In this document: positions 14,305 to 31,209 of the stretch, piece after piece
How positions within the stretch are numbered: position 1 is the stretch's first letter
Layout of the letters: every line of letters starts with the position of its first letter
Position numbers and translations under genes: made by a program
Origin: Deltaproteobacteria bacterium HGW-Deltaproteobacteria-22
Lineage (GTDB): Bacteria; Myxococcota_A; Polyangia; HGW-17
Assembly: GCA_002841825.1 (NCBI GenBank)
Contig: PHAZ01000004.1
Span: 1 to 36,968 of the forward strand
DNA: 36,968 bases
Direction: 5' to 3'
The notes under the pieces: generated by a model
Seen by the model: only the letters and a program-made list of their open reading frames with translations
Databases searched by the model: none
What the model was told of the DNA's origin: nothing

Positions 14305-14447
14305 GGCTTTCCTCCGTACAACTAGAAAGTAGCACCAATCTGGTGGATTACCACCCTGCATCACCCTCCCGGGGTGGAAAAAAAACGGGGGTTTCCGTGC
14401 GCCGGATCACGCTTGAATTCAAATTTTTTACTTTTAACATCGCTTGT

Positions 14448-16181
14448 TCAACGAAGGGACTTTTTCACGTTGAGCACCTCGCGGACCTTGGCGACCAGGT
14501 CGGCGGTGCGGAACGGCTTTCCGATGAACCCGGTGTCCGGGGCGAGGATGCCTCGCACCTCGGTGGAGTCTCCGGAGTAGCCGGACATGAAGAGGACCCG
14601 GGTGGCCGGCCGGATTTCCCGCAGCGCGGTCACGAAGTCCCTGCCGCTCATCTGCGGCATGACCATGTCGGTGAGCACCAGATCGATGGCCCCGGCGTGG
14701 CTCCGGAACAGGCGCAGCCCCTCGACCCCGCTGGCCGCGGTGAGCACGTGGTAGCCGACTCCCCCGAGGATGCGCAGCGTGACCTTGCGCACCAGCTCCT
14801 CGTCCTCCACCACCAGGATGGTCTCCTGACCGCCCGACGGCGCTTCCTGCTCCGGTGACGGTGTGACCAGGTCCCCACACGACACCTGTTGCGGAAACAG
14901 GATCTGGAACGTCGTGCCTTTCCCCGGAACGCTGCGCACGCAGATCTCGCCGTTGCTCTGCTTGACGATGCCGAAGACGGTGGCCAGCCCCAGGCCGGTT
15001 CCCTTGCCCACCTCCTTGGTGGTGAAGAACGGCTCGAAGATGTGCGCCGCAGTCGGCTTGTCCATGCCGCACCCGTCGTCGGTGACGGTCAGGGAAACGT
15101 AGGATCCCGGCGCTGCCACGCCCATCGCCATGGCCGTCTCGGTGTCGAGGGTCACGTTGGCCGTGGCGATGAGCAGCCGTCCGCCCCCGGGCATGGCGTC
15201 CCGGGCGTTGACCGCCAGGTTCACGATCACCTGTTCGAGTTGTCCGGGATCGGCCAGGATCGGCCCCAGGTCCGTTGCCAGCTCATGGTGGATCCCGATG
15301 TGTTCGCCGATGAGCCGGCCGAGCATCCGGTCCAGACCGCAGGCCAGCTCGTTGAGGTTGACCAGTATGGGTTGCAGCACCTGCCTGCGGCTGAAGGCCA
15401 GGAGCTGGTGCGTCATGGCCGCGGACCGATCCGCAGCCTGCCCGATCTCGAGGACGTTGCCGCGCAGGGGATGATCCGGCTCGAGTCCGTCGAGCAGCAG
15501 TCCAATGTTGCCGATGATCACCGCCAGCATGTTGTTGAAGTCATGGGCCACACCCCCGGCCAGGTGGCCGATGGCTTCCATCTTCTGTGCCACCTGCAGC
15601 TGCTGCTCGAGCACGGCCCGGGCAGCCTCGGCCTCCTTGCGCAGGGAGATGTCGCTGATCGCCATGCGGCACACGAACGTTCCGTTTTCGGCGGCAGCGG
15701 TCGCTTCCAGTTGCGCCCAGAAGACCCCGCCGTCGTTCTTCACCATCCGCAGCTCGCACTGCTGAGGGGTCCCGGTATTCAAGATCTGCTTGAGGTGCAG
15801 GTAGTAGTTGTCCTGGTCATCCCGGAAGACAAACCGGGAAAACGGTCGCGTGATCAAATCTTTTCGCGCCAGACCCAGCAGGTTGGTCGAGGTCAGGTTG
15901 GCTTCCAGGATCACGCCGGATCCATTGACGGTGCAGTACCCCACCGGCGCCAGATCATAAAGAGCGAAATATCTCGCGCGGGCGGCGTCCAGCTCGACCT
16001 GGATCCGCCGCAGCTCCTCGTTCTGCAGTTCCAGCTCGATTTGATGCACCTGCAGGTCGTGGAGCGTCCGGCTCATCTCGTCGACCGACGGCGCGATCCC
16101 GGGGACCCGGGGCGTCACCCGCACCTCGGCCAGCCGCCGCAGTTCTGCGGCCTTTGCGGATTCACTGTCGTGATTGGTCAT
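14448..16181 (-). CDS. Hybrid histidine kinase: PAS, HisKA, HATPase, receiver
   Basis: The 577-aa protein has no membrane segment. An N-terminal coiled coil (about 35-70) leads into a PAS domain (about 70-180). HisKA carries the phospho-acceptor His213 in GVAHDFNN. The ATPase domain has N325 (NLAVNARDAM), DDGCGM at 368-373 and GKGTGLGLATVFGIV at 392-406. A C-terminal receiver (about 455-570) has acidic VVEDEE, phospho-acceptor Asp505 in LTDMVMPQ and Lys555 in GKPF. It is therefore a soluble hybrid kinase. Its ATG overlaps the stop of the CheB-CheR fusion gene (ATGA), so the two are translationally coupled and probably act in one signalling pathway. The input signal is unknown. Confidence 0.95.
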   Translation of the reverse strand: MTNHDSESAKAAELRRLAEVRVTPRVPGIAPSVDEMSRTLHDLQVHQIELELQNEELRRIQVELDAARARYFALYDLAPVGYCTVNGSGVILEANLTSTNLLGLARKDLITRPFSRFVFRDDQDNYYLHLKQILNTGTPQQCELRMVKNDGGVFWAQLEATAAAENGTFVCRMAISDISLRKEAEAARAVLEQQLQVAQKMEAIGHLAGGVAHDFNNMLAVIIGNIGLLLDGLEPDHPLRGNVLEIGQAADRSAAMTHQLLAFSRRQVLQPILVNLNELACGLDRMLGRLIGEHIGIHHELATDLGPILADPGQLEQVIVNLAVNARDAMPGGGRLLIATANVTLDTETAMAMGVAAPGSYVSLTVTDDGCGMDKPTAAHIFEPFFTTKEVGKGTGLGLATVFGIVKQSNGEICVRSVPGKGTTFQILFPQQVSCGDLVTPSPEQEAPSGGQETILVVEDEELVRKVTLRILGGVGYHVLTAASGVEGLRLFRSHAGAIDLVLTDMVMPQMSGRDFVTALREIRPATRVLFMSGYSGDSTEVRGILAPDTGFIGKPFRTADLVAKVREVLNVKKSLR

Positions 16182-19100
16182 GGCGTGCCCCCCCTGAGCC
16201 GCTCCGTGGTGGTGATGGCGTAGGTCTGCCCGGCTTCGTTCACCAGCGCCGTGGAGATCATCGAGACCTCCAAGATTGTGCCGTCTTTGGCCACACGGCG
16301 CGTGAGGTACGGTTCCAGGACCTGGGCCCGGCTGAGTTGGTGCACCCGGGACAGGGCTTCCTCGCGCAGTGGTTCGGGGATGCAGTCGCGGATGTTCATC
16401 CCCAGCGCCTGGGCCTCGGAGAATCCATACATCCTCACGGCGCCCGGGTTCCAGGCCAGGACGCGGCCGCTCAGATCCTGCACCGTGATCGCGTCGCGGG
16501 AATCACGCACCACGACGGCCAGCCGGAGCAGGTCATTGGCCTTGGTCAGGGCTGTCCGCATCAGTTGCATCTCGGTGATGTCGATGAAGGTGATCACCGC
16601 GCCTTCGATGACGTTCTCCAGGGTGCGGTAGGGATGGATGCGCAGCAGGTACCCCTTGCCGTCGAGGGTCTGCACCTCCGCCTCGTAGGGAATCAATGTG
16701 TCGAGCACCTTCTGCACGTCGGGCACCAGATCGGTGTAATCGGCGAGGTTGGAGACGAGGTGGCCCACGGGCCGGCCCACGTCACCCGGGATCAGGTTCA
16801 GGATGCCGCTGGCGCTGGGCGTGAAGCGCAGGATGCGCTTGTGAAGGTCCACGAAGACGGTGGCGATACCGGTGCCGGCCATGAGGTTGGACATGCCGTT
16901 GTTGGCCCGCGACAGGTCGGTGACCTTGTTCTGCAGCTCGGCGTTGATCGTGGACATCTCCTCGTTGACCGACTGCATCTCCTCCTTGGACGTCTCCAGC
17001 TCCTCGTTGGTGGACTGCATCTCCTCGTTGACCGACTGCAATTCCTCGTTGGAGGACTTGAGCTCCTCGTTGGAGGTCTCCAGCTCCTCGATGGCGGACT
17101 GGAGATACTCTTCCTTGAGCCTGAGTTCCTTCGTGAGCATGGCCAGTTGCGACTCGATTTTCTTCGACATTTCCGGCGCCGGCGTCGCTGTCCCGAGATC
17201 CACGGGATCCGTCTCAGGCGCCTCCTCCAGGACCACCAGAAACAGTTGGTGCTCGCTCCCCTCCCCTTCGACCGCATCGGGATGGCCCGGCCCCCCGGGA
17301 CGGCCCGGCACCGGCAGGATGGTCAGGTTCACCCGGGTGAAGTGCGCGTTGGTCCTGACGTCCAGACCGTCGCGGCGGACGATCTCCAGGGTCTTGCCCG
17401 CTTCGTGAAGGGCCGCGGACAGTTCAAGCCGCAGGCCTTCCCGGGCCATCCTGACGATGTTGCTGATGCCCGCCACACCCGGGGGTGGTTCGAGGTACAG
17501 ACCCAGTCGGCCGTGCAGGTAGAGGATGTCCCCCGAGTTGTCGACGAGGGCACCGGCCGGCGCGAACTGCAGCAGCAGCGCCTGCTCGGTCAGTTCGCGC
17601 AGCGGCAGCGTCCCGACGGCGGCCTTCCTCCCGGCCTGGCGCGGCGGCGACGACGACAAAGCCGTCACCGGCGGCTGCAGTCGGCTGTGCAGCGCACGTT
17701 TCTCCCCGTGCAACTGATCCCCGCACTGGTAGAGCTTGGCCTTGCGGTCAAGCACGGTGAACAGATCGTCGAACTCACCGATGGTCTCCGAGGTGCCCAG
17801 AAAAAGGAAACCGCCCGGACGAAGCGCGAAGCGGAACATCGGTATCAGGCGCTTCTGCAGGTCGCCGCCGAGGTAGATCAGCAGGTTGCGGCAGGAGATG
17901 AGATCGAGCCGGGAAAAGGGAGGATCCTTGATCACGTCCTGCTCGGAAAAGATCAGCATGTCGCGGATGCCCTTGCGGATGCGGAACATGCCGCCGTCGC
18001 CCTCGGCCGTGAAAAAGCGGGACAGCCGGTCGGGTGTCAGGTCTGCTGCAATGCTGGCCGGGTAGAGGCCGGCCCTGGCCGTGGCGATGGCCGCGCTGTC
18101 GATGTCGGTGGCGAAGACCTGGACCTTGAAGGTTCGTTTCATTACCTCCTGCCGCTCGGCGAGCAGGATGGCCAGGGAATACGCCTCCTCGCCGGTGGAG
18201 CAGCCCGGAGACCAGACGCGGATCACCGCTTCATCGCTCTTGCCGTCAAAGAGCCGGGGGATGACCAGTTCTTCCAGGGTCCCGAACACCTCGGGATCGC
18301 GGAAAAAGCTGGTCACGCCGATGAGGAGATCGCGGAAGAGCGCTTCAACCTCGGCAGTTGTCTGTTGCAGGAACCTCATATAATCGGTCATCGCTTCTAT
18401 CTGCAGCACCGCCATGCGCCGCCCGATGCGGCGATGGATGGTGCTGGGCTTGTACTGGGAAAAGTCATGACCAGTCTGGTTGCGCAACAGCACGAAGATC
18501 TTCTTGAGCGCGTTCTCGTTGGCGATCACCGGAACGGGCTCCCGCAGGGACCTGCCCAGGGCGTGGGCAATATAGGATATGAGATGGGCCGGCATCTCTG
18601 ACGGCGGAAGTTCGTAATCCACAAGGCCCGTGGCCAGCGCGCTTCGCGGCATGCTGTCATACTCGGTGGAGGAGGGGCTCTGGACCATGACCATGCCGCC
18701 TTCGCCCTTGATCGCACGTACCCCCAGGGTGCCGTCGCTGCCGGACCCGGAGAGCACGATGGCGATGGCCCGGTCGCGCAGATCCTGTGCCAGTGACCGG
18801 AAAAAGAAATCGATGGGCAGGCGTTGGCCGCGCGGAGCCGAAGGCTGGAGCAAATGCAGCTCACCGTTCAGGAACGCCATGTCGTGGCCCGGCGGAATGA
18901 TATAGACGCAGTCGGGCCGGACCACCATCTGGTCTTCGACTTCGAAGACCGGCATGCGGGTGCATCGCTGGATCAGTTCCGTGAGGATGCTCTTGTGGTC
19001 CGGGGCCAGGTGTTGCACGAGGACAAAGGCCATGCCAGGACCGGTGTCCAGAGGATGGCTGTCGTCGCCGGCGTCGGAAATGACCGGAGGCATGCCCGAG

Positions 19101-19240
19101 AAGAACGCCTCGAACGCAGCCAGGCCGCCGGCAGAGGCGCCGATGCCGACCACGGGAAAGGCCGGCTCGCTGGAAGCGGGCGCTTTGACGACCGGTGTGT
19201 CGTCCACTGGTTGGGTTGGGGTTTTCTTCTTTCTTGTCAT
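16178..19240 (-). CDS. CheB-CheR-PAS fusion protein
   Basis: The 1020-aa soluble protein combines a CheB methylesterase domain (about 28-215; triad Ser36 in GIGASAGGL, His77 in VQHLAP, Asp169 in SGSGSDGT) without the CheB receiver domain. It continues with a CheR methyltransferase (about 240-510; VTSFFRDP, SAM-binding WSPGCSTGEEAYSLA, ISCRNLLIYL). A coiled coil rich in Asn-Glu-Glu repeats spans about 692-775. Two PAS domains follow (about 780-890 and 900-1010). Such fusions are known from myxobacteria and rhizobia and often pair with hybrid kinases, as here. No MCP gene is in the window, so its methylation target is unknown. The ATG at 19240 has GGAG 7 nt upstream; the TTG at 19255 is less likely. 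It is coupled to the downstream kinase. Confidence 0.95.
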   Translation of the reverse strand: MTRKKKTPTQPVDDTPVVKAPASSEPAFPVVGIGASAGGLAAFEAFFSGMPPVISDAGDDSHPLDTGPGMAFVLVQHLAPDHKSILTELIQRCTRMPVFEVEDQMVVRPDCVYIIPPGHDMAFLNGELHLLQPSAPRGQRLPIDFFFRSLAQDLRDRAIAIVLSGSGSDGTLGVRAIKGEGGMVMVQSPSSTEYDSMPRSALATGLVDYELPPSEMPAHLISYIAHALGRSLREPVPVIANENALKKIFVLLRNQTGHDFSQYKPSTIHRRIGRRMAVLQIEAMTDYMRFLQQTTAEVEALFRDLLIGVTSFFRDPEVFGTLEELVIPRLFDGKSDEAVIRVWSPGCSTGEEAYSLAILLAERQEVMKRTFKVQVFATDIDSAAIATARAGLYPASIAADLTPDRLSRFFTAEGDGGMFRIRKGIRDMLIFSEQDVIKDPPFSRLDLISCRNLLIYLGGDLQKRLIPMFRFALRPGGFLFLGTSETIGEFDDLFTVLDRKAKLYQCGDQLHGEKRALHSRLQPPVTALSSSPPRQAGRKAAVGTLPLRELTEQALLLQFAPAGALVDNSGDILYLHGRLGLYLEPPPGVAGISNIVRMAREGLRLELSAALHEAGKTLEIVRRDGLDVRTNAHFTRVNLTILPVPGRPGGPGHPDAVEGEGSEHQLFLVVLEEAPETDPVDLGTATPAPEMSKKIESQLAMLTKELRLKEEYLQSAIEELETSNEELKSSNEELQSVNEEMQSTNEELETSKEEMQSVNEEMSTINAELQNKVTDLSRANNGMSNLMAGTGIATVFVDLHKRILRFTPSASGILNLIPGDVGRPVGHLVSNLADYTDLVPDVQKVLDTLIPYEAEVQTLDGKGYLLRIHPYRTLENVIEGAVITFIDITEMQLMRTALTKANDLLRLAVVVRDSRDAITVQDLSGRVLAWNPGAVRMYGFSEAQALGMNIRDCIPEPLREEALSRVHQLSRAQVLEPYLTRRVAKDGTILEVSMISTALVNEAGQTYAITTTERLRGGTP

Positions 19241-19655
19241 GAAAATACTCCGCAAATCTCCAAAAAACCACCCACGAACTCAACCTACAATATATTTACA
19301 CCAGGAACATTGCCGGATGCGATGAAAGTGATGGGGAACTTTCATGCAAGAAGTGGAAAATACATCCCAGTGTCCCCCTGGCAATTGCCGATGTCAACGG
19401 TTGTTTTTTAGCTCGATATCTTCACAATGATCAAACGAGAAATCATTTATGAACATGTCTCCCGGTGTGTACTGGGTCGCAGGGAAAATCCCCTCTTTTC
19501 TTTGAAATTCAGTGGATTATTCGGGCTTGTGATTTCAGGGACGAAAAACCCGCGCCAATCAAGCACTTTCCACCCTGTGAAAGTACCATTTTCCCGACCT
19601 TCACGTCAATCGGCTTTTCTCAGTGCGATTTCTTCGCTCTAAGATAAAGTGCGTC
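19241..19655. other. 415-bp non-coding border region
   Basis: No credible gene is seen here. It must hold the promoter of the CheB-CheR/kinase operon (AT-rich stretch near 19285-19300) and the 3' end of the ankyrin transcript. Base composition drops sharply in GC relative to the left side. The att-like repeat copy 1 lies at 19566-19638. This is the left edge of the accessory region. Confidence 0.6.
19566..19638. repeat. Att-like site, copy 1 (hairpin plus 41-bp block)
   Basis: A hairpin CTTTC-N8-GAAAG at 19566-19583 is followed after 14 nt by a 41-bp block (19598-19638) starting CCTTCACGTCAATCGG. The block is identical at 35 of 41 positions, without gaps, to the block at 25920-25960 that covers the 3' end of the integrase gene. 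That second block is also preceded by a hairpin at exactly 14 nt. It lies 17 bp beyond the ankyrin gene's stop codon. It may be an attachment site or a remnant of a related integrase tail. Confidence 0.6.
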
Positions 19656-21581
19656 CTATTTCCGATGCAGGTGTGTGGCGAGCGCGGCGCGGATCTGCGG
19701 GTACTCGAACACGCGGTACCCGGCGATGGCGTCGAGGGACTTTTGCACGATGACGTCGTACTTTTCGTCCTTCATATGCGACAGCAGCAACATCACCATC
19801 GCCAGATGCCCTTCCCGGGCAGCGGTGAACAGCGGGTGATGCACCTGCTCGTATTTCCATCGCGTTCGTATACGGTTCTTCGAATCCGCGAAGAGTACTG
19901 GATTTTCGTCACAGTCTGATTCACCGACGAAGGCCTTGAGCACGTCCGCCTCGTCCTCGATCACCCACTCGTGCGCAAGCTGGGCACCGGCGGCCAGCAG
20001 CATCCGCGCGATGTCGAGGTAGTCGTACTTGGCTGCGTAGCTGAGGGCGCTCAAACCGCCGTTTCCGGCGTTCACCTCGGCCCCGTGCTTCAGCAGAAAC
20101 GCCACCGCCTCCTTGCGCCCGTACTCTGCAGCGAACATCAGCGGCGTCTTGTACGGGTAGAAGACATGCACCTGCTCATAGTTCTTCTCGATGGTGGAGA
20201 AGTCGACCGGCGCCGGGGCTTTGCGCGCTTCGACCAATCCGAAAAAATCTGGCATTTTTCCAAGGTACTGATTCCGAATGGAAGCCCCATCACAATACAA
20301 ATACGGGCTATGCTCGTTGCCGAGGGTGTCCTTGATTTTCAACAATTCCTGAAAGCCGCAACAGTCCTCCTTGGGAACTCCCAGAGGGGTATCCTCCCAG
20401 TCGACATCGATGCAAACGGTCGCATTCGTCATGGATATGGAGTGGTAATATTCCCCTTCGGAGAAGACATTGGCAGATAATCCTATCTTCAAGAGTAAAT
20501 CAAGGACGACCACATTTCCCGTACGAGAAGCCATCGAAACCATCGTCGGAACCGGTGTGACCTGGTTGTCCAGAAGTATTTGTACGACATCCGCATTTCC
20601 AAAAAGGACAGCTTTGGTAATGGGCCACTCGAAATACTCACTTGTAGTAGGCTTGCTAAAAGCCCAATCATCGCCACTCTTCACGTTGTAGCTCGTCACC
20701 TGTTTTCGTAGCCAATGCGTGGAATTCAGGATGGCGGCGATGTCATTGAGTCTTTGACCTGTGATGTTTTCGATAAACTCATAACCCCGCGTACGGTCGA
20801 TTGAATACGAGCTTGGGTCATTTCGAATAATTCCCTCCAAAATTAAATTGTATTCCGGATAATGCTTTGCGAACAGTTTTGCCTTGGGTTTTATCCCGGT
20901 TCCACGAAAACAATCCGCAGGTTTCCCAAAGTTGAGCACGGCATGAAAAGGATTCAGCGGATCGATCATGGCGATTCGACATTTTTGGTATTCGATCAAC
21001 TTGCCATGGAAATGTTCCGAAGAGTTGATTAATTTCTGCCACAACCCATGGTCCGGAACCGTCTGAACACAGGATTCGGCCCGAACGCGGCTGGGAATGC
21101 GCAGATGGGAATGGGCCCATTTCGCCTGGACGACGGACAAGCGCTGATACAGGAGGTTCGAGCCCCAATCCCAGGCTCCCTGTTTTTTCGGGAACAACAT
21201 CCATTTCGGCCAGAGTGCAAGTTCGTTGTATTCCATCCTTTCCACTTTTCGGGCCAGTTCCATTTCGAGCCGGACAGGAAAAGCATCCACATGCGAGGGC
21301 AAGTCATATGCGGTCGGGTCCATGAACCACTTGATAAACCCAGGAAGGATGAACCCGCCCCATGCCTGCTTGAAGATGTATTCTTGCAGGTTCATGACCA
21401 CCTGGTTCTTCTGCAGGAACTCAGCGAGCTTCTGCCAGTCGTGGGAACCGTCGCTTCGATTCCAGTGGGAAAACGGAACCGCCGTTTTTCCAGTTCGGGC
21501 GCCGGTGGAGGCGAAGCAACCGAAGAGCTGGGAAGAAAACCCAACCGCTAGAACGAGGGAAAGGAGACTCAGTTTTTTCAT
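19656..21581 (-). CDS. Ankyrin-repeat lipoprotein
   Basis: The 641-aa product has a lipoprotein-type signal (LLSLVLAVGFSSQLFGC). Residues about 30-320 show no known motif and hold many aromatic residues. Ankyrin-like repeats follow: about 330-390 (WPITKAVLFGNADVVQILLD and GNVVVLDLLLKIG), about 490-560 (PLMFAAEYGRKEAVAFLLKH, SALSYAAKYDYLDIARMLLA) and about 600-630 (PLFTAAREGHLAMVMLLL). Ankyrin repeats bind other proteins. It follows the subtilase gene by 9 bp in the same direction, so a partner or inhibitor of that protease is a reasonable inference, not shown. GC is lower than in the left half of the window. Confidence 0.85.
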   Translation of the reverse strand: MKKLSLLSLVLAVGFSSQLFGCFASTGARTGKTAVPFSHWNRSDGSHDWQKLAEFLQKNQVVMNLQEYIFKQAWGGFILPGFIKWFMDPTAYDLPSHVDAFPVRLEMELARKVERMEYNELALWPKWMLFPKKQGAWDWGSNLLYQRLSVVQAKWAHSHLRIPSRVRAESCVQTVPDHGLWQKLINSSEHFHGKLIEYQKCRIAMIDPLNPFHAVLNFGKPADCFRGTGIKPKAKLFAKHYPEYNLILEGIIRNDPSSYSIDRTRGYEFIENITGQRLNDIAAILNSTHWLRKQVTSYNVKSGDDWAFSKPTTSEYFEWPITKAVLFGNADVVQILLDNQVTPVPTMVSMASRTGNVVVLDLLLKIGLSANVFSEGEYYHSISMTNATVCIDVDWEDTPLGVPKEDCCGFQELLKIKDTLGNEHSPYLYCDGASIRNQYLGKMPDFFGLVEARKAPAPVDFSTIEKNYEQVHVFYPYKTPLMFAAEYGRKEAVAFLLKHGAEVNAGNGGLSALSYAAKYDYLDIARMLLAAGAQLAHEWVIEDEADVLKAFVGESDCDENPVLFADSKNRIRTRWKYEQVHHPLFTAAREGHLAMVMLLLSHMKDEKYDVIVQKSLDAIAGYRVFEYPQIRAALATHLHRK

Positions 21582-21590
21582 TGCATTTTC

Positions 21591-23816
21591 CTACTGCAAT
21601 CCATGAAAACAATAGGTTTCCAACGTGTTGTACAATTGCTGCATGGGTATCCCGTTCTCCGATTCCCCCAGCATGAACGAGGTCAAGATGTAACCGTCGA
21701 ACTCATGGTTAGTCGGCTCTGGTGTCGGATCGCCGGGATTCTCGGGTGGTCTCACCATCTCCAGCATACCCGACACGAGGACCTCCATCTCCACGCTGAG
21801 CGGATTTCCGGATGGGTCCCGCTGGGTAATCAAACAGGAGGGGAAGGTCATCGCAGAGGTCTCTAGCGCGACTCCCGTGTAATGAATTCCATCCTTGGTC
21901 GCGTCAAATAGCATGGACGGGCCGGTGCCATCCTCAGAGTTGAACACGGGGAAAGGGGTTCCGATCTGCATCGAACAATTCAGAGAACCTGCCACTTCCG
22001 GAATGCAACTTCCACCGAACGAAATACTCATATCCTGGGCGATCAACTGAAAGTTCCAGTCATCCGGGCGGACGAATCCATACGTCCAATGTATGATGCC
22101 CTCGCCCTCCGTATCAAGGCTCGATGAGAATGCATACATATCGAACCCATTGACGTCCAGAAGGCTCCAGCCGCAGATGCGATGAAGGATGAGTCTTGGG
22201 TCATCGGTCACTTCATCTCGGTTTCTGTCCACGATCGCAGAGATATCTGACAATGATGGTTCACGAAGCAGGAGCGCCTTGGCAACTGCATCAAAAAGAA
22301 TAATACCTCGACCCAGGTCTCCCTCTGGGAGTGAAACCGGCAGTCCTGCGGTGGGAACGATGATGTCCTCGATGATTTCTTTCGGCGTGAGATCCGGCGC
22401 GACTGCACGGATCATTGCTACCTGAGCGGTCACAATCGGCGCGGCAAAGGACGTACCTGCTTCAGATGTCGTCACGGGCAATCCATCGGGCGATTGGGCA
22501 TTGAGAACCGGTGGCGCTGCGGGGGCATAGACCATCACAATTCCTGATGTAGTTCCGGTGATATAGTTTGAGCCAGACCAGATTTTGAAAAGTCCATTTT
22601 CATCTTGGGGAACAGCATATGCCCCGACATGAATGACGTTGTTCTGAGAGGAAGGAATTCCGTATGGAAACAGCAAGTCGTTATATTTTTGATAGTTAAT
22701 AATTACATCAAGTGGCTGACCGTCATTTCCTGCTGCCAAGACGAAAAGCACATCTGAATGGCGCTCAAAAATACCTTTAATTTTTGTTTTAATAAGAATA
22801 GAGTCTTTCTTGGCTTTTCTTGCGCATTCTTTATAACTTTCTGAATCGGGTAAGGGGTAAATGTCTACAGGACATTCAGTAACATCTAAATAATGCTGAG
22901 CGCTCTTCAGACTAATAGCCATACTAATATTTACAACACTTGCTTGCTTGAGGAATTTATCATTTAGGGAGTAGAAAAACTGCAACAAATCGCTTCTGAA
23001 TGGGCCAGTGTTTCCCTGACTTTTCGTTAACGCGGGAGCCACGTCAACAATAAAATCGGTGGACAACGTCCTCTTCAGAAGGCCGCTGACGCCGCCGTCA
23101 TCATCGTCGGCTGCCAGAATTCCCAGGACTTTGGCGCCGTGGCCATATCCGGGTTGTCCGCAGAACTGCGCGTCCTGCTGCTTCGCTGCTTCGCCATTGA
23201 CCCCGACGACCTGCAACCCGTTGGCGATGTCGTCGAATTGACTCTGCAAGTAACCCAGGCAGAACTGGCCATCCATCACGAGGATGTTCACTGGAGACAG
23301 GGAGATAAATTGCTTGATCTTGTCGAACAAAATTACCGTGGAATAGTAATTGATTGAATCCAGCGCGAGACGAAAGGCGTCTTTCAATTTATCGAGATCC
23401 CCTTCGGCGCGACACAAACCTCCGTCGCTGGATTTCTGAACGCTCCCCTGAAGATCGAGGAGGAAATTGTGCGCTGCGAATTCCACCTCGATGCGTTGTT
23501 CAGCCGACTCCATGAACGCCTCCAGTTCGGCCGGTGTCTGGCAATCGCATTGCAGTTGCCAGATGCCCATGTCCGGGATCTGTCCGACGAGTTCTACACC
23601 CCACTCGGCGGCCAGTTGTCGCATGCGGTCCGCTCGGGGATGCGGCTCGTTCGTGAACACCAGAAACTGGTTGACCGGAAATCCGAGCGCTTCCCCGTTT
23701 TCATCCACGCATTTGTCCATATCGACCGGAGCGAGGATGGTCTCTTCGGTGGTTTTCCCGGCAGGCTTGCTACAAGCCATGAATACCCAGACTATAAGCA
23801 CAATATATTTTTTCAT
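21591..23816 (-). CDS. Subtilisin-like (S8) serine protease, lipoprotein
   Basis: The 741-aa product starts with a lipoprotein signal (MKKYIVLIVWVFMAC, lipid Cys at 15). Residues about 48-118 look like a propeptide with the usual ferredoxin-like pattern. The S8 catalytic domain holds Asp182 (NILVMDGQF), His226 (GYGHGAKVLGILA), oxyanion Asn364 (LAAGNDG) and Ser456 (EAGTSFAAPIV), so it should be active. A C-terminal domain of about 190 residues is unrecognised. The ATG at 23816 has AAGGAG 6 nt upstream; the longer frame to 23858 adds residues in front of the signal peptide and is rejected. It is followed 9 bp later by the ankyrin lipoprotein gene. A TTGACA box lies about 60 bp upstream. Confidence 0.92.
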   Translation of the reverse strand: MKKYIVLIVWVFMACSKPAGKTTEETILAPVDMDKCVDENGEALGFPVNQFLVFTNEPHPRADRMRQLAAEWGVELVGQIPDMGIWQLQCDCQTPAELEAFMESAEQRIEVEFAAHNFLLDLQGSVQKSSDGGLCRAEGDLDKLKDAFRLALDSINYYSTVILFDKIKQFISLSPVNILVMDGQFCLGYLQSQFDDIANGLQVVGVNGEAAKQQDAQFCGQPGYGHGAKVLGILAADDDDGGVSGLLKRTLSTDFIVDVAPALTKSQGNTGPFRSDLLQFFYSLNDKFLKQASVVNISMAISLKSAQHYLDVTECPVDIYPLPDSESYKECARKAKKDSILIKTKIKGIFERHSDVLFVLAAGNDGQPLDVIINYQKYNDLLFPYGIPSSQNNVIHVGAYAVPQDENGLFKIWSGSNYITGTTSGIVMVYAPAAPPVLNAQSPDGLPVTTSEAGTSFAAPIVTAQVAMIRAVAPDLTPKEIIEDIIVPTAGLPVSLPEGDLGRGIILFDAVAKALLLREPSLSDISAIVDRNRDEVTDDPRLILHRICGWSLLDVNGFDMYAFSSSLDTEGEGIIHWTYGFVRPDDWNFQLIAQDMSISFGGSCIPEVAGSLNCSMQIGTPFPVFNSEDGTGPSMLFDATKDGIHYTGVALETSAMTFPSCLITQRDPSGNPLSVEMEVLVSGMLEMVRPPENPGDPTPEPTNHEFDGYILTSFMLGESENGIPMQQLYNTLETYCFHGLQ

Positions 23817-23854
23817 CAAAGACTCCTTCGCGTCCGGCGGGATGGAATTGATTT

Positions 23855-23882
23855 TCACTAACTGACCTTCACTGTCAAGGTA
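23855..23882 (-). promoter_or_regulatory. Possible sigma70 promoter of the subtilase/ankyrin operon
   Basis: On the minus strand a perfect -35 box TTGACA (about 23877-23872) is followed after 16 bp by GAAAAT, which matches four of six -10 positions. Transcription would start roughly 30-35 bp before the ATG at 23816. The -10 box is weak, so the call is tentative. Confidence 0.4.
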
Positions 23883-24021
23883 TTCTTAGCGATTGCGACT
23901 TTGGTATGCTGCGCGTGAACACCCGGCTTGAGCCGGAAGGCACGCGCACTCGAAGTTCCAAGGCTCCGCACGCACCGACACGAACCGACAGGACCATCAC
24001 CTTTTTACCCTGAATGGGAAC

Positions 24022-24050
24022 TTGCCATTGATTGCCGTAACGGATACTAT
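24022..24050 (+). promoter_or_regulatory. Predicted sigma70 promoter of abiE
   Basis: TTGCCA at 24022-24027 and TACTAT at 24045-24050 are separated by exactly 17 bp, a good housekeeping-type promoter. The start of transcription would fall near 24057, about 27 bp before the abiEi ATG. Confidence 0.6.
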
Positions 24051-24061
24051 GCTTATCCGTT
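24039..24061. promoter_or_regulatory. Palindromic operator over the abiE -10 box
   Basis: A perfect 8-bp inverted repeat, AACGGATA (24039-24046) and TATCCGTT (24054-24061), separated by 7 bp, covers the predicted -10 box and start site. AbiEi antitoxins of studied systems repress their own operon by binding inverted repeats in the promoter, so this is the likely binding site. An outer pair CTTGCC (24021-24026) and GGCAAG (24074-24079) flanks it. Confidence 0.6.
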
Positions 24062-24083
24062 GGAGGCGGAAACGGCAAGAACG

Positions 24084-24890
24084 ATGAAACCGATCGACTA
24101 CTTCGCATCCCATCCAGTCTTTCGCCTGGAGGACTTCGCCGCCGCGCATCAGGCAGGCGACCGGCTCCAGCCGAGCTCCAGTCTGGCGATCGTGAAAAAG
24201 CACGTCCAGGCGGGGAACCTGCTGCGCGTCCGTCGAGGCGTTTACGCGGTCGTCCCGCGCGGGCAGACGCCCGACAGCCTGGTCGTCGATCCCTACGTCC
24301 TGGCCACCCACTCCACGCCTGATGCCGTGGTCGCCTACCACGGCGCTCTGCAATTCCACGGCAAGGCGCACTCCCTTACCCGGCGAGTGCCGTTTCTCAC
24401 TGCGACCACGGCGAGGGCCTTTGCCTTTCGGGGGACGGAGCTCGTCCCCGTCCCCATTCCGCCGCCCCTGCGCGCGCTCTCCGATCTGGGCGGTGGCGTG
24501 GTCTTGAAGACGCGGGATGGTTCCTCCGTCAGGGTGACGACCCTGGAGCGCACCCTCGTCGATGTGCTCGACGTGCCCCGGCACGGTGGCGGCTGGGAGG
24601 AGATCTGGCGTTCACTCGAGTCGGTCGAGTTCTTCGACTTGGACGCGGTCATCGAGTACGCGTTCAAGCTGTCCTCGGCCGTGACCGTGGCCAAGGTCGG
24701 GTTTTACCTCGAACAACATCGGGAGGAGTTGATGGTCGAGGACCACCATCTGGAGCGTCTGCGCGCGCGCGCTCCCAGACGCCCGATGTACCTGGAGCGC
24801 GGCAAGCGCGAACCGGGCAAGCTCCTTTCGGGCTGGAACCTCGTGGTTCCTCAGCGCGTCCTTGACCGCAGTTGGGCAGAGGTCACATGA
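24084..24890 (+). CDS. abiEi: AbiEi-type antitoxin / transcriptional regulator
   Basis: The 268-aa product has the AbiEi layout: an N-terminal winged-helix-like part (residues about 1-60, ending 'GNLLRVRRGVYAVVP') and a larger C-terminal domain with 'TLERTLVDVLDVPRHGGGWEEIWRSL', the conserved block of type IV AbiEi proteins. AbiEi proteins counter the AbiEii toxin and autorepress the operon. The ATG at 24084 fits the family N-terminus; the frame open from 23928 crosses the promoter and is rejected. Its stop overlaps the abiEii start (ATGA), so the genes are translationally coupled. GC is high, unlike the neighbouring protease module. Confidence 0.9.
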   Translation: MKPIDYFASHPVFRLEDFAAAHQAGDRLQPSSSLAIVKKHVQAGNLLRVRRGVYAVVPRGQTPDSLVVDPYVLATHSTPDAVVAYHGALQFHGKAHSLTRRVPFLTATTARAFAFRGTELVPVPIPPPLRALSDLGGGVVLKTRDGSSVRVTTLERTLVDVLDVPRHGGGWEEIWRSLESVEFFDLDAVIEYAFKLSSAVTVAKVGFYLEQHREELMVEDHHLERLRARAPRRPMYLERGKREPGKLLSGWNLVVPQRVLDRSWAEVT

Positions 24891-25885
24891 ATCTGACTCC
24901 GCAGGTGATGGCCAAGGAGGTCTCGGCCACGGGCTTCGGCGCGGAGCCGCTGGAGAAGGTCTTCCGGTTGATGGCGCTGCTCGACGCCCTTGGCAGCCAC
25001 CCGTTCCTGAAGCCTCGGATCGCGCTCAAGGGCGGAACGGCCCTGAACCTGTTTACCTTCGAGGTGCCGCGCCTTTCCGTGGACATCGATCTGAACTACA
25101 TCGGCGCAGCCGACCGCGAGACGATGCTCGCCGAGAAGCCCAAGGTCGAGCAAGCGGTGCAGGCAGTATGCTTGCGCGAGGGACTCACCATCAAGCGGAT
25201 CCCGAGCGACCACGCCGGTGGCAAATGGAGGCTGACCTACGCTGGATTGAAGGGCACTCCTGGAAACCTCGAGCTGGACATCAACTTCATGCTGCGCACT
25301 CCGTTATGGCCCTGCACTACGAAGGACTGCCACCCGGTCGGCTCTCTTCGCGCTGCCCCGGTTCGCGTGCTGGACCTGCACGAACTGGTGGCCGGCAAAC
25401 TCGCCGCGCTCATGGCTCGCAGCGCGAGCCGAGATGTCTTCGACGCGCATGCGCTTCTTGTCACCCCCGGCCTCGACATTGCCAAGCTCCGTCTCGGTTT
25501 CGTTGTCTACGGTGGCATCAACCGCAAGGACTGGCGCACGGTCTCGAGCACCGACGTCACTGCCGAGAAGAACGAGGTGCAGATGGAACTGGTCCCCATG
25601 CTGCGGGCCGACATCGCTCCCGCCAGGCGCGAGGTCGCTGCCTGGTCCGCCAGGCTGGTCACAGAGTGCCGCGAGCGGCTCTCCTTGGTGCTCCCGCTGC
25701 GCGAGCAGGAGCAGGAGTTCCTGCGACGCCTCAACGACCAGGGTGAGATCGCCCCGGAGTTGCTCACGACCGACCCGGCCATGCAGACAGTGGTCCGCGA
25801 GCATCCGGGCCTCAGGTGGAAGTCCTTGAACGTCCGTAAGCACCACGGTCTTGACAGTGCGGGCGGTGCGGACGAACCCGTCTGA
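24887..25885 (+). CDS. abiEii: AbiEii-type nucleotidyltransferase toxin
   Basis: The 332-aa protein is a DUF1814-type nucleotidyltransferase. The motif 'LKGGTALNLF' followed by 'PRLSVDIDLNYIG' supplies the G-G and D-x-D metal-binding residues. The later 'LDLHELVAGKLAALMARSASRDVFDAHAL' is the family's conserved helix block. AbiEii toxins use nucleotides to block growth, causing phage abortive infection or plasmid-addiction effects; which target is modified here is unknown. The ATG at 24887 overlaps the abiEi stop by 4 bp (ATGA), the usual coupling. It converges on the integrase gene, leaving only 37 bp between stop codons, and that gap begins the att-like block. Confidence 0.92.
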   Translation: MNLTPQVMAKEVSATGFGAEPLEKVFRLMALLDALGSHPFLKPRIALKGGTALNLFTFEVPRLSVDIDLNYIGAADRETMLAEKPKVEQAVQAVCLREGLTIKRIPSDHAGGKWRLTYAGLKGTPGNLELDINFMLRTPLWPCTTKDCHPVGSLRAAPVRVLDLHELVAGKLAALMARSASRDVFDAHALLVTPGLDIAKLRLGFVVYGGINRKDWRTVSSTDVTAEKNEVQMELVPMLRADIAPARREVAAWSARLVTECRERLSLVLPLREQEQEFLRRLNDQGEIAPELLTTDPAMQTVVREHPGLRWKSLNVRKHHGLDSAGGADEPV

Positions 25886-25889
25886 CGGC

Positions 25890-25960
25890 CTTCCAAGCCT
25901 GGAAGAACCCTTCACTGCGCCTTCACTTCAATCGGTTTTTGTCAGGGGGATTTTTTCGCT
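25890..25960. repeat. Att-like site, copy 2, over the integrase 3' end
   Basis: A hairpin CTTCCA-AGCC-TGGAAG at 25890-25905 is followed after 14 nt by the 41-bp block 25920-25960, starting CCTTCACTTCAATCGG. It matches copy 1 (19598-19638) at 35/41 positions. The block contains the stop codon and last 12 codons of the integrase gene. Integrases whose 3' end overlaps their attachment site are known, which supports but does not prove that reading. Confidence 0.6.
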
Positions 25961-27128
25961 TTGTGCGCGACAGCGTGTCCAGTTTGCGTGCGGAGGAGCG
26001 AAGGCCGTCTTCTGATAAGTGTGCGTACCGCTGGGTCATCGCCACGGAACTGTGGCCCATGAGCCGACACACAGTGTAGAGGTCGACCCCCGCCTGCACC
26101 AGGTTGGAGCCGAACGAGTGCCGCAGGGCGTGGCAGGTGACCCTTCGCAGGCGCGCGGCCTTGCACGCGCGGGTCAGCGCGTTTCCGATGATCGACTTGT
26201 TGCGGTAGATGCCCGTCGAGGATGGGAACACCAGACGACTGCCCAGGGGCGCGTCCGCAGGCGGGCGGACGGTCTCGCGGCCAGGATGCAGGATCGAGGA
26301 GATCTCGTTCAGGGCGCAGGCCGCAGACGCATTCAACGGTACGGTGCGGGGCTTGCCGCTCTTGGGCGAGGAGACCGAAAACGTGCCCTTGATCGGGTAG
26401 ACGGTGCGCCGGACCGTGACCGTCTCCCGTTGAGGACCCAGGTCCACGTCGCCCCACTCCAGGCCGATGAACTCCCCCACGCGCAGCCCCGTGTGGAACA
26501 GGAACCGGAAAACGGCGCTCATGAGCGGCTCGGCGTGGGCGCACACCATCTCCAGTTCGTCGATGTTCAGGAAGTCCGTCCTGTCGTTGGACTGTCGTCT
26601 GGGGACGTCCAGCAGCACCTGGGGCGGCTCCATGCCGGCCCGCTTCGAGTCCCGCAGCGCAGCCTTGAGCACGGACAGGTGGCGGGGCGTCGGCATGTTG
26701 CGAACGCCCCGGATCAGGGCGTCGATCTGCTCTTGCGTGACCGACCTCCACGGCACGTCTCCGATGGCCGGGAAGAGGTGCTTCTGCAGGGCGCACTGGT
26801 CGACGAACAGGGTACTTTCCTTCTTGCGCCCGGAGTCCCGCCAGAAGTCCATGATCTTGGACAGGGCCTCCTTCGTGGTGATGGCCGCAGCCTTGGCCGC
26901 CGCTCGCGACGGCGGCTCCTTGGCGAGGGACTTGACCAGGACGATTTCCCGTTCCGCCCAGACCAGCGCCTCCCCGCGCGTCGAGAACCCCCGACGTTGC
27001 AGCCGGACGGGCTTGCCGGCGTCGGTGGAAAAGGAGACGTCCACCCGGTACATCGTCCGCCCACGAGCGGAGTAGGGCAGGGCTTCGACACCGGAACGCA
27101 CTTCTTGCATGGTTCTACGCAATGGCAT
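25923..27128 (-). CDS. int: Tyrosine recombinase / integrase
   Basis: The 401-aa protein has an N-terminal arm-type domain (about 20-70), a core-binding SAM-like domain (about 85-175) and the catalytic domain. The active-site set is complete: Arg216 (HTGLRVGE), Lys256 (SPKSGKP), His333 and Arg336 (CHALRHSFGSNL), His359 (LMGHSS) and Tyr368 (TQRYAHL). It should thus cut and join DNA at att sites. The ATG at 27128 is supported by GAGGTG 5-7 nt upstream; ATG 27110 is a weaker option. It is the last gene of the minus-strand operon ORF161-primase-xis-int. Its 3' end carries att-like copy 2. Confidence 0.95.
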   Translation of the reverse strand: MPLRRTMQEVRSGVEALPYSARGRTMYRVDVSFSTDAGKPVRLQRRGFSTRGEALVWAEREIVLVKSLAKEPPSRAAAKAAAITTKEALSKIMDFWRDSGRKKESTLFVDQCALQKHLFPAIGDVPWRSVTQEQIDALIRGVRNMPTPRHLSVLKAALRDSKRAGMEPPQVLLDVPRRQSNDRTDFLNIDELEMVCAHAEPLMSAVFRFLFHTGLRVGEFIGLEWGDVDLGPQRETVTVRRTVYPIKGTFSVSSPKSGKPRTVPLNASAACALNEISSILHPGRETVRPPADAPLGSRLVFPSSTGIYRNKSIIGNALTRACKAARLRRVTCHALRHSFGSNLVQAGVDLYTVCRLMGHSSVAMTQRYAHLSEDGLRSSARKLDTLSRTKRKNPPDKNRLK

Positions 27129-27237: not shown

Positions 27238-27591
27238 TCACTTCCCGGCGGCGACCAGCGGCTCCCCGGCCAGCCACTCGAGAAGCACCGACTTCCGGAA
27301 GCGGTAGCCCTTCCCGGCCCGGCGAGCAGGGATCTGCTTGTGCTCGACCATGTAGTAAATGCTGTTCGGGGTTACGCCAAGCAGAGCGGCGGCTCCGGCC
27401 ACGTCCAGGACTTCCGGCAATTCGGTGGGGTCAACGGTCTTCAGTTTGGGTTTCAGGTTCTCATTCATGGTGGTCATCTTTCTGGCCATCTCGGCCGTTA
27501 GAAAACTGTCCTTTTCGTATGGGTGGTCTGTGTGCAGTGGGGGCCATGCCCCGTTTGGGTTGCACCTAGGGGAGAGGGAACGCCGGTTCAT
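27238..27591 (-). CDS. Excisionase-like MerR/AlpA-type HTH protein
   Basis: The 117-aa product carries an excisionase-type helix-turn-helix (HTH_17) at about 58-108: LPEVLDVAGAAALLGVTPNS, IYYMVEHKQIPARRAGKGYR, then FRKSVLLEWLAG. Such proteins bend DNA for excision or control element genes. The ATG at 27591 is chosen because it overlaps the primase stop as ATGA and has GGGAG 6 nt upstream. The first 34 residues have no recognisable domain, and ATG at 27489, 27477 or 27468 would give the compact form usual in the family. It lies between the primase-helicase and integrase genes, as in many phage satellites and integrative elements. Confidence 0.85.
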   Translation of the reverse strand: MNRRSLSPRCNPNGAWPPLHTDHPYEKDSFLTAEMARKMTTMNENLKPKLKTVDPTELPEVLDVAGAAALLGVTPNSIYYMVEHKQIPARRAGKGYRFRKSVLLEWLAGEPLVAAGK

Positions 27592-30500
27592 GAGTTGCTC
27601 CCTTCCGCCTGCTCGAGCAGGTAAAGATACCCGTCTTCATCAATCACAATTTTCCCGGCGTACAGGAGATGGGTCACTGCCGCGTCAATCGCTTCGTGCG
27701 GAAGCGAGGAAGCGGCCCGGAGTCCTGCCCGCGTGCGGCTGGCCCGCCCGAGCAGTTCGAGCACGACCTGGCAGGCGGCAGACTGTTCGAGGGGGGCAGG
27801 GTGGTCCTCCAGTTCGGGAGAATCGAGAGCCGCCATTTCCCCTTGATTATCCATGGGGAACGGCTCTGGCTGGCCGTTTTCAGGGGAAGTCTCCTGTGCA
27901 CGGGAAGTAATCAAAAGAACGTCGTTCTCCGACTTTTCTTCTTTTTCTCTCTCCTCGTGCGTAGTAGTTGAGGAAAGCGGAATTCCAGATCCGTTTCCCA
28001 TATCGTCTATAGGATTTTTCCGGCTCTCGGCTTCTTCATTTGCAAGGCAAGTTGACAGAATGCTCTTTGTAGTCTTTTCATTCGCGGCCCATTTCAGACC
28101 GACCAGGACCTCTTTCCCTTCGGCCGGCCCCTTCCGCCGCTCTCTACGTGGCATTCCTGACATTGACTTGCCAATTTCGCGCGCGACCTCAAACAAGGTT
28201 CTCCGACCCCTGGGGTCGCGTTCCTGCGTTTTGTGGTTCGTCATTGACCAGGTACTTGTCAGGTACGTTTCGACGATTTCCTCTATGGCGACGCTTCCCC
28301 CGGAATCGGACCAGGAAAGACGGCTCTGCATGAAGATGCGCAAAGGGTCTACCATATCGACATAGAGTGACTCCGTTTCTTCATCGGTCAGGTCTGCAGG
28401 GTAAAAACCCTCTGGACCGCATTGGATCGCAATGTCAGCCGCTTCAGACCAGACCGAATCGAGTTCTTCATTTGTCAATTCACGGATGATTTTTTCGATG
28501 TCATCATTTCCGCCGGAAGTACCCTTCAGCCGAAGCAAGAACGGGAGAATAGAGAGCCGGCGCCAGAACTCTGAGCCGAGCCCGACAAGAAAAACCATGA
28601 GGTTCAGTGCGTGAAAAGGAGTCGCCATGTTGCGGGTCTGATAGGCCGGCAAATTTTTAGGGTTTACTTCGAGGGTCAATTCATCGGCCACCTGTTTCCA
28701 TTCCTCGAGGTTGCCGTCCTTGATCTCCGAGCGTTTCGCTTCGCTCACCGAATTCATGAAAGAGCCTTCGAGGCGGGTTCCTGCGTGAGAATCTTTGGCC
28801 AGTGTCGAGGCGGCTAGGTGACAGACACCACCGTCCAGGATCCGATCAAGCAGGGAGAGCAGTTTTGATTTCCCCGTTCCTGGCGGACCGACCAGGTAGA
28901 AATGCTTGCCCCCGGGCCACGGCGCAACCACGCGGGGAAGGAGGCTTCCCAGGATCCACTTCTGTACGGTCGGAGCGTAGGCAGCCAGGATCTGGTAAAC
29001 GCGGTTCTTCTCCCGCGCGAGGCGCTCATGGGGGGGCAGGTAGCGGCGCCCCACTGTGTTCTTCAGTTTGAATTCAGGTAGGGACGGCTGGAACTCGCCG
29101 GTATGGAAATCGAGGATCCCGTTGACCAGCGCGACCCGGAAGCCGAGCGTTTCCACGTCGGGTGGACCCTGCACCTGGGAAAGAAACCCTGCATGATGAA
29201 GGACTGCTGCCTTCAGTTCGCGTGAAGCCGTCAAGAGATCGGCCTTTTTGAAAAAGTCCTGAAGGGTCAGGTGCCGCCAGTGTTCATCTTCCCAAAGTAA
29301 TATTTCGGCAGCATCCCTGCCAATACCGAAAACGCCCGTGAACCAGAGAGTTGACTCTTCGAGCATTGCTTTCACAAGCTCGATGGCCTCCGTGTTCAGG
29401 TCGGCTTTCTTCTCGGGTTTCTGTCCACAGGGGGCGGTCTTCGATGCCTTCTTCAGTGCGGCACGGAGTGTTCCCAGGGGAATGCCCAGGCGCTCTTTTG
29501 CGGTCTTCAGAAACCGTTCATGGAAGATCTCGTCTCGAGCGGCGAGTGCCTCGACGAAAAGCGGCAAGCCAGTCTTCTCCGGTGCGGCGGGGTCGATATG
29601 CCCGAGCAGCCATTCCGGGAAAAGTAGCCTCTTTTCAATGACTTCGGCGAAAGCGGAAGCCCCGTGTTCACGGATGAAGGAATTGGCGTCAACCTTGGCC
29701 CCGGTCGGGTCCGGCGGCAGGTCTGCAAGGTAGCAGTCCACGCCCGAGCCCCACAGGAAAGCTGCGGTCGTCTTTGCCCCCTCGAGGCCAGCCCGGGTGC
29801 CACCCTCCTTGGGCGGATCGTGGTCGGGGATGATGACCACTTCGCTGGCCATGCTGGCCAGGCGCAACAGGTGAGGCTTGCCCTTCTCTGTTACGCTTGT
29901 GGTGCACAAGGCCACGGCAGGGAAGCCCGCTTGAACGCAGGAGATCACGTCCAGCGGCCCCTCGACAATGCAAAGAACCTCACCGGCTTTTGTCGTGTTC
30001 GTGCCGAACAGGTGCCCATCATCCGGCAGGTGTTCAGACTTCGGCTTCAAATACTTCGCTTCTTTCGCTGGGTCGGTTGCACGGCCGATGAAATTGACTG
30101 GACAGCCATGTACGAGGACCGGAAACAGGACGTAGCCAGCGAAGGCCAGGTGGCCCGGCTCCCGGAATAAGCCGGTGCTCATGATTTCATCGGATGAGAC
30201 CCCCTGTGCTTCGAGCTTCTGCCACAGGTCCGCTGGTGCCATGCCGATCCGGAAGAGAGAAAGGTTCTCTGGCGTGATTCCGCGGTCTTGGGCGAACCGT
30301 TCGAGAGCGGGCGGCCGGTGGCCTTCGATGACCTTCCAGGCGGCCTCCAGGGCATCGTAGGACCGACTGCAGCGGTTCTGTGCAGCGGTCTCCTCATGTG
30401 TGGGCGGATCGAGTTCGATCCTAGCCTTCTCAGGAGTGAGCGGCTCGAGTTCGATCTCGGCTCGGTCGGCCAGGAACTGACAGGCGCTCGGGAAGTCCAT

Positions 30501-30731
30501 CCCTTGGCGCTTTTCGAGCCAGGCGAACACATCCCCGCCTTCGCTGGCAGAGTGGTCATTCCAGAGCCCCTTCTCGGGGGTCACGGAAAGCGAGTCCGTC
30601 CGGTCAGATGAGACACCTTTCCCTCGAAGACCGGAAGCGGTTTCATGCAGCTCGATTCCCAAGTCACGGATGACAACATCAATCCGATTCACGGAAGCAG
30701 CCTTCAGTTCGGCAACGGGCCATTTAGACAT
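27588..30731 (-). CDS. Primase-helicase with TOPRIM and P-loop ATPase domains
   Basis: The 1047-aa protein begins with a DnaG-type CHC2 zinc-finger fold (about 35-95: SVTPEKGLWNDHSASEGGDVF), but the zinc-binding Cys/His residues are gone. A TOPRIM domain follows with Glu257 (CIVEGPLDV) and Asp303/Asp305 (IPDHDP). A helicase/ATPase has Walker A at about 615-622 (GPPGTGKS). The C-terminus ends in a likely winged helix after a low-complexity Glu/Ser-rich linker. It would prime and unwind DNA to replicate the element. ATG 30731 has AAGGGGGAG just upstream. It overlaps ORF161 (ATGTCTAA) and the xis gene (ATGA). Phage- or satellite-derived origin is inferred from the domain set. Confidence 0.88.
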   Translation of the reverse strand: MSKWPVAELKAASVNRIDVVIRDLGIELHETASGLRGKGVSSDRTDSLSVTPEKGLWNDHSASEGGDVFAWLEKRQGMDFPSACQFLADRAEIELEPLTPEKARIELDPPTHEETAAQNRCSRSYDALEAAWKVIEGHRPPALERFAQDRGITPENLSLFRIGMAPADLWQKLEAQGVSSDEIMSTGLFREPGHLAFAGYVLFPVLVHGCPVNFIGRATDPAKEAKYLKPKSEHLPDDGHLFGTNTTKAGEVLCIVEGPLDVISCVQAGFPAVALCTTSVTEKGKPHLLRLASMASEVVIIPDHDPPKEGGTRAGLEGAKTTAAFLWGSGVDCYLADLPPDPTGAKVDANSFIREHGASAFAEVIEKRLLFPEWLLGHIDPAAPEKTGLPLFVEALAARDEIFHERFLKTAKERLGIPLGTLRAALKKASKTAPCGQKPEKKADLNTEAIELVKAMLEESTLWFTGVFGIGRDAAEILLWEDEHWRHLTLQDFFKKADLLTASRELKAAVLHHAGFLSQVQGPPDVETLGFRVALVNGILDFHTGEFQPSLPEFKLKNTVGRRYLPPHERLAREKNRVYQILAAYAPTVQKWILGSLLPRVVAPWPGGKHFYLVGPPGTGKSKLLSLLDRILDGGVCHLAASTLAKDSHAGTRLEGSFMNSVSEAKRSEIKDGNLEEWKQVADELTLEVNPKNLPAYQTRNMATPFHALNLMVFLVGLGSEFWRRLSILPFLLRLKGTSGGNDDIEKIIRELTNEELDSVWSEAADIAIQCGPEGFYPADLTDEETESLYVDMVDPLRIFMQSRLSWSDSGGSVAIEEIVETYLTSTWSMTNHKTQERDPRGRRTLFEVAREIGKSMSGMPRRERRKGPAEGKEVLVGLKWAANEKTTKSILSTCLANEEAESRKNPIDDMGNGSGIPLSSTTTHEEREKEEKSENDVLLITSRAQETSPENGQPEPFPMDNQGEMAALDSPELEDHPAPLEQSAACQVVLELLGRASRTRAGLRAASSLPHEAIDAAVTHLLYAGKIVIDEDGYLYLLEQAEGSNS

Positions 30732-31209
30732 GGCTCCCCCTTTGTCGCGTTTTCGCGGTTTCTAATTTTTCTAGTCTATGAGAGTGCGGCCCGGCTTCAC
30801 CGGGCTCGGGGTCGCCGTCTTCGGAACTGCCAGGCGGCCCTGTGCGGACAGCTGCTGCCTTGTGGGTTCGGCCTGCCCGGTGAGCTCGGCCGCCCCTGTG
30901 GGCTCGAGCGCGGGGAAGACGCGACGCGGAGAATGCAAAGCGCGGCGTGCTCATCCTTCTGGTGGCTGACCACAACTGGCGTTGCTTATTTACTGCGTCG
31001 ACACTATCACTGTGCGACATTGGACGGATGAAAGCAGCTTGATCTCCTGTAGCGTAGCTTCCCTCAATAATTGCCAAGACTTCATCAAAGGAGCGATGGG
31101 CAAATATCCAGTCGCCGAGCATCTCGACAATCCGGACATGTGGATCTTGTGTCAACATGGTGGCTTGTAGAACATTCAGCAATTCTGGAAAACTTCGAAA
31201 CATACGCAT
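30724..31209 (-). CDS. Hypothetical 161-aa protein, first gene of the integrase operon
   Basis: This is not a recognised family. Residues 1-70 read as a plausible helical domain (RSFPELLNVLQATMLTQD, FDEVLAIIEGSYATGDQAAF). The rest is low-complexity, rich in Arg, His, Ala and Gly, with a degenerate repeat (RAHRGGRAHRAGRTH) and a strongly basic character. Support for it being real comes from the 8-bp overlap of its end with the primase start (ATGTCTAA), as in coupled operons. The DNA under the repeat part is much GC-richer than under the N-terminal part, so the ORF may be a fusion of unrelated DNA. The start site is not certain; no good ribosome binding site precedes ATG 31209. Confidence 0.4.
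   Translation of the reverse strand: MRMFRSFPELLNVLQATMLTQDPHVRIVEMLGDWIFAHRSFDEVLAIIEGSYATGDQAAFIRPMSHSDSVDAVNKQRQLWSATRRMSTPRFAFSASRLPRARAHRGGRAHRAGRTHKAAAVRTGPPGSSEDGDPEPGEAGPHSHRLEKLETAKTRQRGSHV

Follow-up and report, generated by a model that had tools for sequence, protein, structure and literature searches.

The window analysed here is a stretch of 36,968 nucleotides (contig PHAZ01000004.1) from the assembled genome of Deltaproteobacteria bacterium HGW-Deltaproteobacteria-22. It contains genes for an ankyrin-repeat protein, a subtilase-family protease, an AbiE pair and an integrase module with a primase, and two similar blocks of 41 bp (copy 1 and copy 2), one beside the ankyrin gene and one at the end of the integrase gene (int). 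The features are given below, where G001 denotes a second genome of the same genus and proC the gene for pyrroline-5-carboxylate reductase (in G001, TIGR00112 above cut-off).

19517-19655, minus strand: far terminal segment of the island, with an integrase-tail remnant, predicted arm motifs, a hairpin and the core; 81% identical to the end of the island on G001 contig C134
19518-19531, minus strand: far-end attachment core, 14 bases (CACAAGCCCGAATA) identical to the 3' end of proC; the only exact match in the window, with the same core at both ends of the G001 island
About 19565-19584: inverted repeat (hairpin) seen in the sequence, in the arm segment of copy 1; minus-strand fold z -3.7
19598-19638, minus strand: copy 1, an in-frame remnant of an integrase tail (RRNRTEKSRLT, then stop), with predicted arm motif CCGATTGACGTGAAGG at 19598-19613
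19656-21581, minus strand: ankyrin-repeat protein (PF12796), cargo of the proposed outer module; ortholog in G001
21591-23858, minus strand: subtilase-family protease (PF00082), cargo of the proposed outer module; ortholog in G001
24078-24890, plus strand: AbiEi antitoxin (PADLOC AbiEi, 3e-90)
24887-25885, plus strand: AbiEii toxin, a nucleotidyltransferase (PF08843; PADLOC AbiEii, 6e-101)
25890-25905: inverted repeat (hairpin) seen in the sequence, in the arm segment of copy 2; folding no better than shuffles
25920-25960, minus strand: copy 2, covering the final 12 codons of the intact integrase gene, with predicted arm motif CCGATTGAAGTGAAGG
25923-27128, minus strand: tyrosine integrase, catalytic residues present (PF00589; motifs; PHROG integrase, 5e-60)
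27238-27591, minus strand: excisionase-like helix-turn-helix protein (TIGR01764 above cut-off)
27588-30731, minus strand: DNA primase of the integrase module (PHROG DNA primase, 7e-31; DNAG_N and Toprim)
30724-31209, minus strand: 161-aa protein with no family match; a second element (L117) has a 57% identical counterpart, likewise next to a primase

An intact tyrosine integrase, as carried by islands that tyrosine recombinases direct to gene ends, is recognized here from its motifs (TGLR, HALRH, GH and Y) and from PF00589. Its relatives in a phage collection are mostly about 30% identical. Two relatives at 41% identity (L115 in this genome and L118 in a third genome, G002) share sequence as far as some 120 bp beyond the int stop codon and diverge from there, which fits int being the last gene before the core. 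The ends of the integrase paralogs (L115, L116, L117, L118 and others) showed no comparable gene-end repeat. A P4-like phage satellite would have an integrase, an excisionase, a primase and genes for capsid hijacking or packaging; the first three are seen here, the 161-aa protein has no family match, and the island lacks its right part in this contig.

Copies 1 and 2 agree at 35 of 41 positions, ungapped and on the same strand, just as the first-pass annotation had stated. They are the top-scoring pair of 41-mers in 19000-27000 (runner-up, 27/41). The top match to copy 2 in 200 block-shuffled windows was 26/41, and a pattern scan of shuffled windows gives an expectation of 0. A pattern scan of the 4.4-Mb assembly at up to 3 mismatches finds the block only twice, and a genome-wide interspersed repeat was rejected on this count. 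The sole further copy among 318 genomes of the class lies in G001 and matches copy 1 at 36/41. No third copy stands above background to the right of the primase, and the viral contigs of the phage collection hold no exact match to the conserved part of the block. A BLAST search of 39 genomes for more distant copies gave two weak matches (C114 and G002 C26), which on inspection lacked the paired motifs and the core and were set aside. An alignment of 61 nt can be made between copies 1 and 2, and one of 100 bp between copy 2 and its G001 counterpart, each at 75%; judged by these alignments, the limits of 41 bp are drawn too tight.

Read on the minus strand, the block is in frame with the final 12 codons of the integrase and the stop is conserved. 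The earlier claim that copy 2 covers the last 12 codons of int holds, the in-frame tail being RKNPPDKNRLK. The three tails, RRNRTEKSRLT in copy 1, RKNPPDKNRLK in the intact integrase and RRKPSEISRLT in G001, end at a common stop. Copy 2 is by position and frame part of the intact integrase. Copy 1 reads as what is left of a second, related integrase: the tail remains, the body is missing, and the ankyrin gene would now occupy the place of the body. By the terms of the first-pass annotation, its reading would fall if copy 1 were only a decayed integrase tail with more of the gene beside it; copy 1 does read as such a tail, but the integrase-like sequence comes to only some 20-odd codons in total. 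The distance between copies 1 and 2 (35/41) is about that between copy 1 and the G001 copy (36/41), the flanking core gene being 95% identical between the genomes. Since the two copies in the window differ about as much as copies from different species, they look like the tails of two separate integrases rather than the products of a recent duplication.

The block also holds a pair of motifs, CCGATTGA and CGTGAAGG, and its best-conserved portion is CCGATTGA followed by [CA]GTGAAGG. The proC core has the pair to either side of it, in this genome as in G001; the motifs on the proC side differ in position and orientation in both. In 251 kb of loci, CCGATTGA and [CA]GTGAAGG are found together, no more than 150 bp apart, only in five att regions and at one unrelated place. 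GTGAAGG was seen 7 times against 0.16 expected and CGATTGA 5 times against 0.12, numbers to be read with the partial homology of the regions in mind, because of which the occurrences are not all independent. Lambda-type integrases have arm-type sites flanking the core on both sides, and by analogy the layout of the motifs is the one expected of such sites. The pair probably represents arm-type integrase sites, which the integrase of the window may bind. The 41-bp block is, on the evidence of reading frame and motifs, integrase-tail coding sequence plus a putative arm-type site, and not the site of crossover.

The core appears to be the 3' end of proC. On G001 contig C134, a 28-bp core lies at the end of that gene (3459-3486) and again, in direct orientation, beyond the third copy of the block (8153-8180), giving the order proC, core, protease, ankyrin, arm, core; the 28-bp pattern fits the two ends with 0 and 2 mismatches. 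In the present genome, proC is on another contig, C88, where its end (376-403) reads ACAAGCCCGAATAGCTGGAACGATTTCA. A search of 14 genomes with the proC-end sequence at up to 3 mismatches returned only the two G001 sites and C88 376-403. The direct repeat of the proC end, 28 bp at both ends in G001, is represented at the far end in the window by just 14 exact bases (23/36 over a longer stretch), some 70-110 bp from the 41-bp block. Homology between the window and G001 runs on past copy 1 and ends at 19517; copy 1 is not the left edge that it was first taken for. C88 ends 375 bp past its core, and the first 170 bp beyond the core match the proC-side end of the G001 island. Both genomes have the porin and proC genes on one side (96% and 94% identical in amino acids; on C88 in this genome) and the same beta-propeller gene on the other (window 11314-14364; 95% nucleotide identity to G001). 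C88 and the window contig are separate contigs, with no physical join; from synteny, C88 would be the missing right flank of the window contig. Taken from the repeats and this synteny, proC is the target of the island, and the island ends at 19517-19531.

No core adjoins copy 2, the best score there being 21/36 at 25820, which is background level. Within the AbiEii end, 25820-25855 could be read as a degenerate proC core, which was dismissed as coincidence in view of this score and of AbiEii homology that reaches residue 318-321. Close proC orthologs were found only in the genome analysed and in G001, none in the G002 assembly, and no genome with an empty proC site was found. A literature search by word beginnings, a poor test of the point, returned no report of proC as an island target.

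In G001 (C134, locus L139), the third copy of the block lies about 20 bp past the ankyrin ortholog, and the protease ortholog, which misses its first 60 or so residues, precedes it. The island there consists of protease and ankyrin genes only and has a single copy of the block; AbiE, integrase and primase are absent from the locus, and the length variation between relatives that had been anticipated is thus real. Copy 1 and its flanks are common to the two species, and copy 1 is therefore not the boundary of a strain-specific 6.3-kb insertion. Downstream of the G001 island come a VOC gene, a lipoprotein gene and the beta-propeller gene. A comparison beyond the far end (window 14448-19255 against L139 8268-10383) finds two histidine kinases here and the VOC and lipoprotein genes in G001, the next gene being the same. 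As the genes beyond the far core differ between the species, the flank has changed too. A search of the eight other genomes found no relative of the VOC gene.

We regard as likely that the locus is a composite island at the 3' end of proC, formed by accretion of two related elements, of which the outer has decayed and is now a cargo module that lacks an integrase. The tyrosine integrase element would consist of the 161-aa protein, primase, excisionase-like protein and int, with int last; within about 150 bp past int would lie arm-type sites and then a core copying the proC end. One and the same proC site would have received two elements of this type, related to each other. The outer one, on the histidine kinase side, would have lost the integrase body; behind its ankyrin gene there would remain the tail of the integrase, the arm sites and the core (copy 1). 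In the inner one the integrase would have stayed intact, complete with a tail and arm of its own (copy 2), and the core would have been lost, AbiE now abutting the arm. G001 would retain the outer part only. The layout of the window has AbiE, protease and ankyrin genes between int and the core, and a bodiless integrase tail beside the core. The model connects features present in the sequence (in G001 a core at either end, here a core that matches it, the common arm motifs, the in-frame tails and the lack of int in the G001 island) through an order of events that we infer. Since no core is left between the modules, tandem integration is likewise something we infer. Against the model also count the missing join between C88 and the window contig, the differing genes past the far core, the shortness of the exact core match here (14 bases) and the fact that no genome with an empty site was found. 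The first-pass annotation had proposed stepwise accretion: of that proposal there remain a mobile island with site-specific ends and signs that it had more than one integrase module; its boundaries and an att site within int do not hold.

Two related elements in tandem, the outer decayed, would be the simplest history, with a single element that received cargo as the main rival. Ankyrin, protease and AbiE genes would then have been inserted between int and core, with duplication of the tail and arm, and no second integrase would ever have existed. Such a history would suit the retention of the same short segment (tail plus arm) in both copies, the abutting of AbiE on copy 2 and of the ankyrin gene on copy 1, and the presence of just one integrase gene. 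A young duplication should however be near-identical, whereas the copies differ at 6 of 41 positions, about as much as the copies of two species do, and in the G001 island the copy-1 form occurs where no integrase is present. We consider a single element unlikely. Very unlikely, in our judgment, is that the integrase tail and arm segment act as a repeated landing platform, the integrase capturing cargo modules between int and the proC core; if true, this would be a gene-end version of cassette collection. An integron-like cassette array was rejected: integron integrase models score far below cut-off (59/265 bits), and there are two blocks, one of them coding.

It had first been suggested that the integrase uses the 41-bp block as its attachment site, and that the copies enclose a 6.3-kb segment which is one cassette. 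The direct repeat does adjoin the end of the integrase gene, and the gene content of the segment does differ from that of G001. A longer-range core matching the proC end nevertheless flanks the G001 island, which has one copy of the block only, and copy 1 has the same flanks on both sides in the two genomes; we find this explanation highly improbable. Hairpins had also been reported by both copies. Both exist, but only copy 1, on its minus strand, gives a fold clearly stronger than those of shuffles (z -3.7); z for the remaining folds ranges from -2.0 to +1.0. That the block serves in regulation or as a terminator and happens to follow two genes is scarcely credible, since, for all the hairpins and the position of both copies past gene ends, no canonical terminator was called at either place, copy 2 folds no better than shuffles, and the block is coding in int and absent elsewhere in the genome.

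The composite island has counterparts, and the locus is a clear example of a layered genomic island of known kind, not of a new kind of system. The PAISt family of Streptomyces comprises gene-end islands with C-terminal integrase remnants at decayed ends and an internal att site (PMC4057263). PAISt, PAISs1 and PAISa1 resemble the present island in occupying a gene 3' end (theirs bacA), in having att copies in duplicated gene ends and in their modules, with such remnants and an internal att site (PMC4057263). They differ in target, here proC, in showing an internal core, none being visible here, and in being far larger. Accretion after the integrase has been lost is a standard route (PMC5704250). 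As in the CIME and tandem accretion described for ICESt1-related elements (PMC5704250), an element devoid of integration genes has kept its ends (the G001 protease and ankyrin module; the bodiless tail of copy 1) and would stand in tandem with an integrase-bearing one. Unlike in CIMEs, no conjugation or mobilization genes were recognized in the part of the island seen here, and the integrase module has a primase and looks satellite-like. Because no att core was found between the modules (best 21/36 at 25820, background), the strict tandem label is offered as our reading and not as a claim of membership. CGI48 of Shewanella putrefaciens (PMC8978831) is likewise a composite genomic island with a toxin-antitoxin pair, there HipAB and here AbiE; it has an island of a yicC-targeting family inside a tRNA-Trp island, whereas both modules here seem to be at one site.

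The locus adds a bounded mobile-island site at the proC end, in a genus represented here by assembled genomes only. It also illustrates that a short repeat by an integrase can be the tail and arm sites of a dead integrase rather than the crossover site; calling the island by the repeat nearest the integrase gives the wrong boundary here. The cargo includes anti-phage defence genes, AbiE and possibly GapS4a: a GapS4a-like protein, shorter than the family profile, is encoded near the contig end (36312-36941), possibly as a second defence gene of the island.

Beyond the primase module, a 21-bp unit (ACGATGTATTTCTAGGTACAA) is repeated in tandem about four times at 31794-31885. In the second element of this genome (L117; C311, 1421-2383 and 2625-3752), a relative of the 161-aa protein is fused to a broken primase remnant and adjoins a different integrase, of about 30% identity. 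The protease-ankyrin pair (window 19680-20220 and 23076-23660 against L139) is a mosaic between the species: its outer ends are mostly 90-100% identical and its middle roughly 50-80%, lower in places, against 95% for the flanking core gene. This pattern points to recombination at the conserved ends, between which the centre changes fast. G001 contig C16 has another ankyrin relative, diverged to 29% identity (L165, 4141-5721); it runs to the contig end, where the conserved C-terminal part starts, and hints at further copies of the module.
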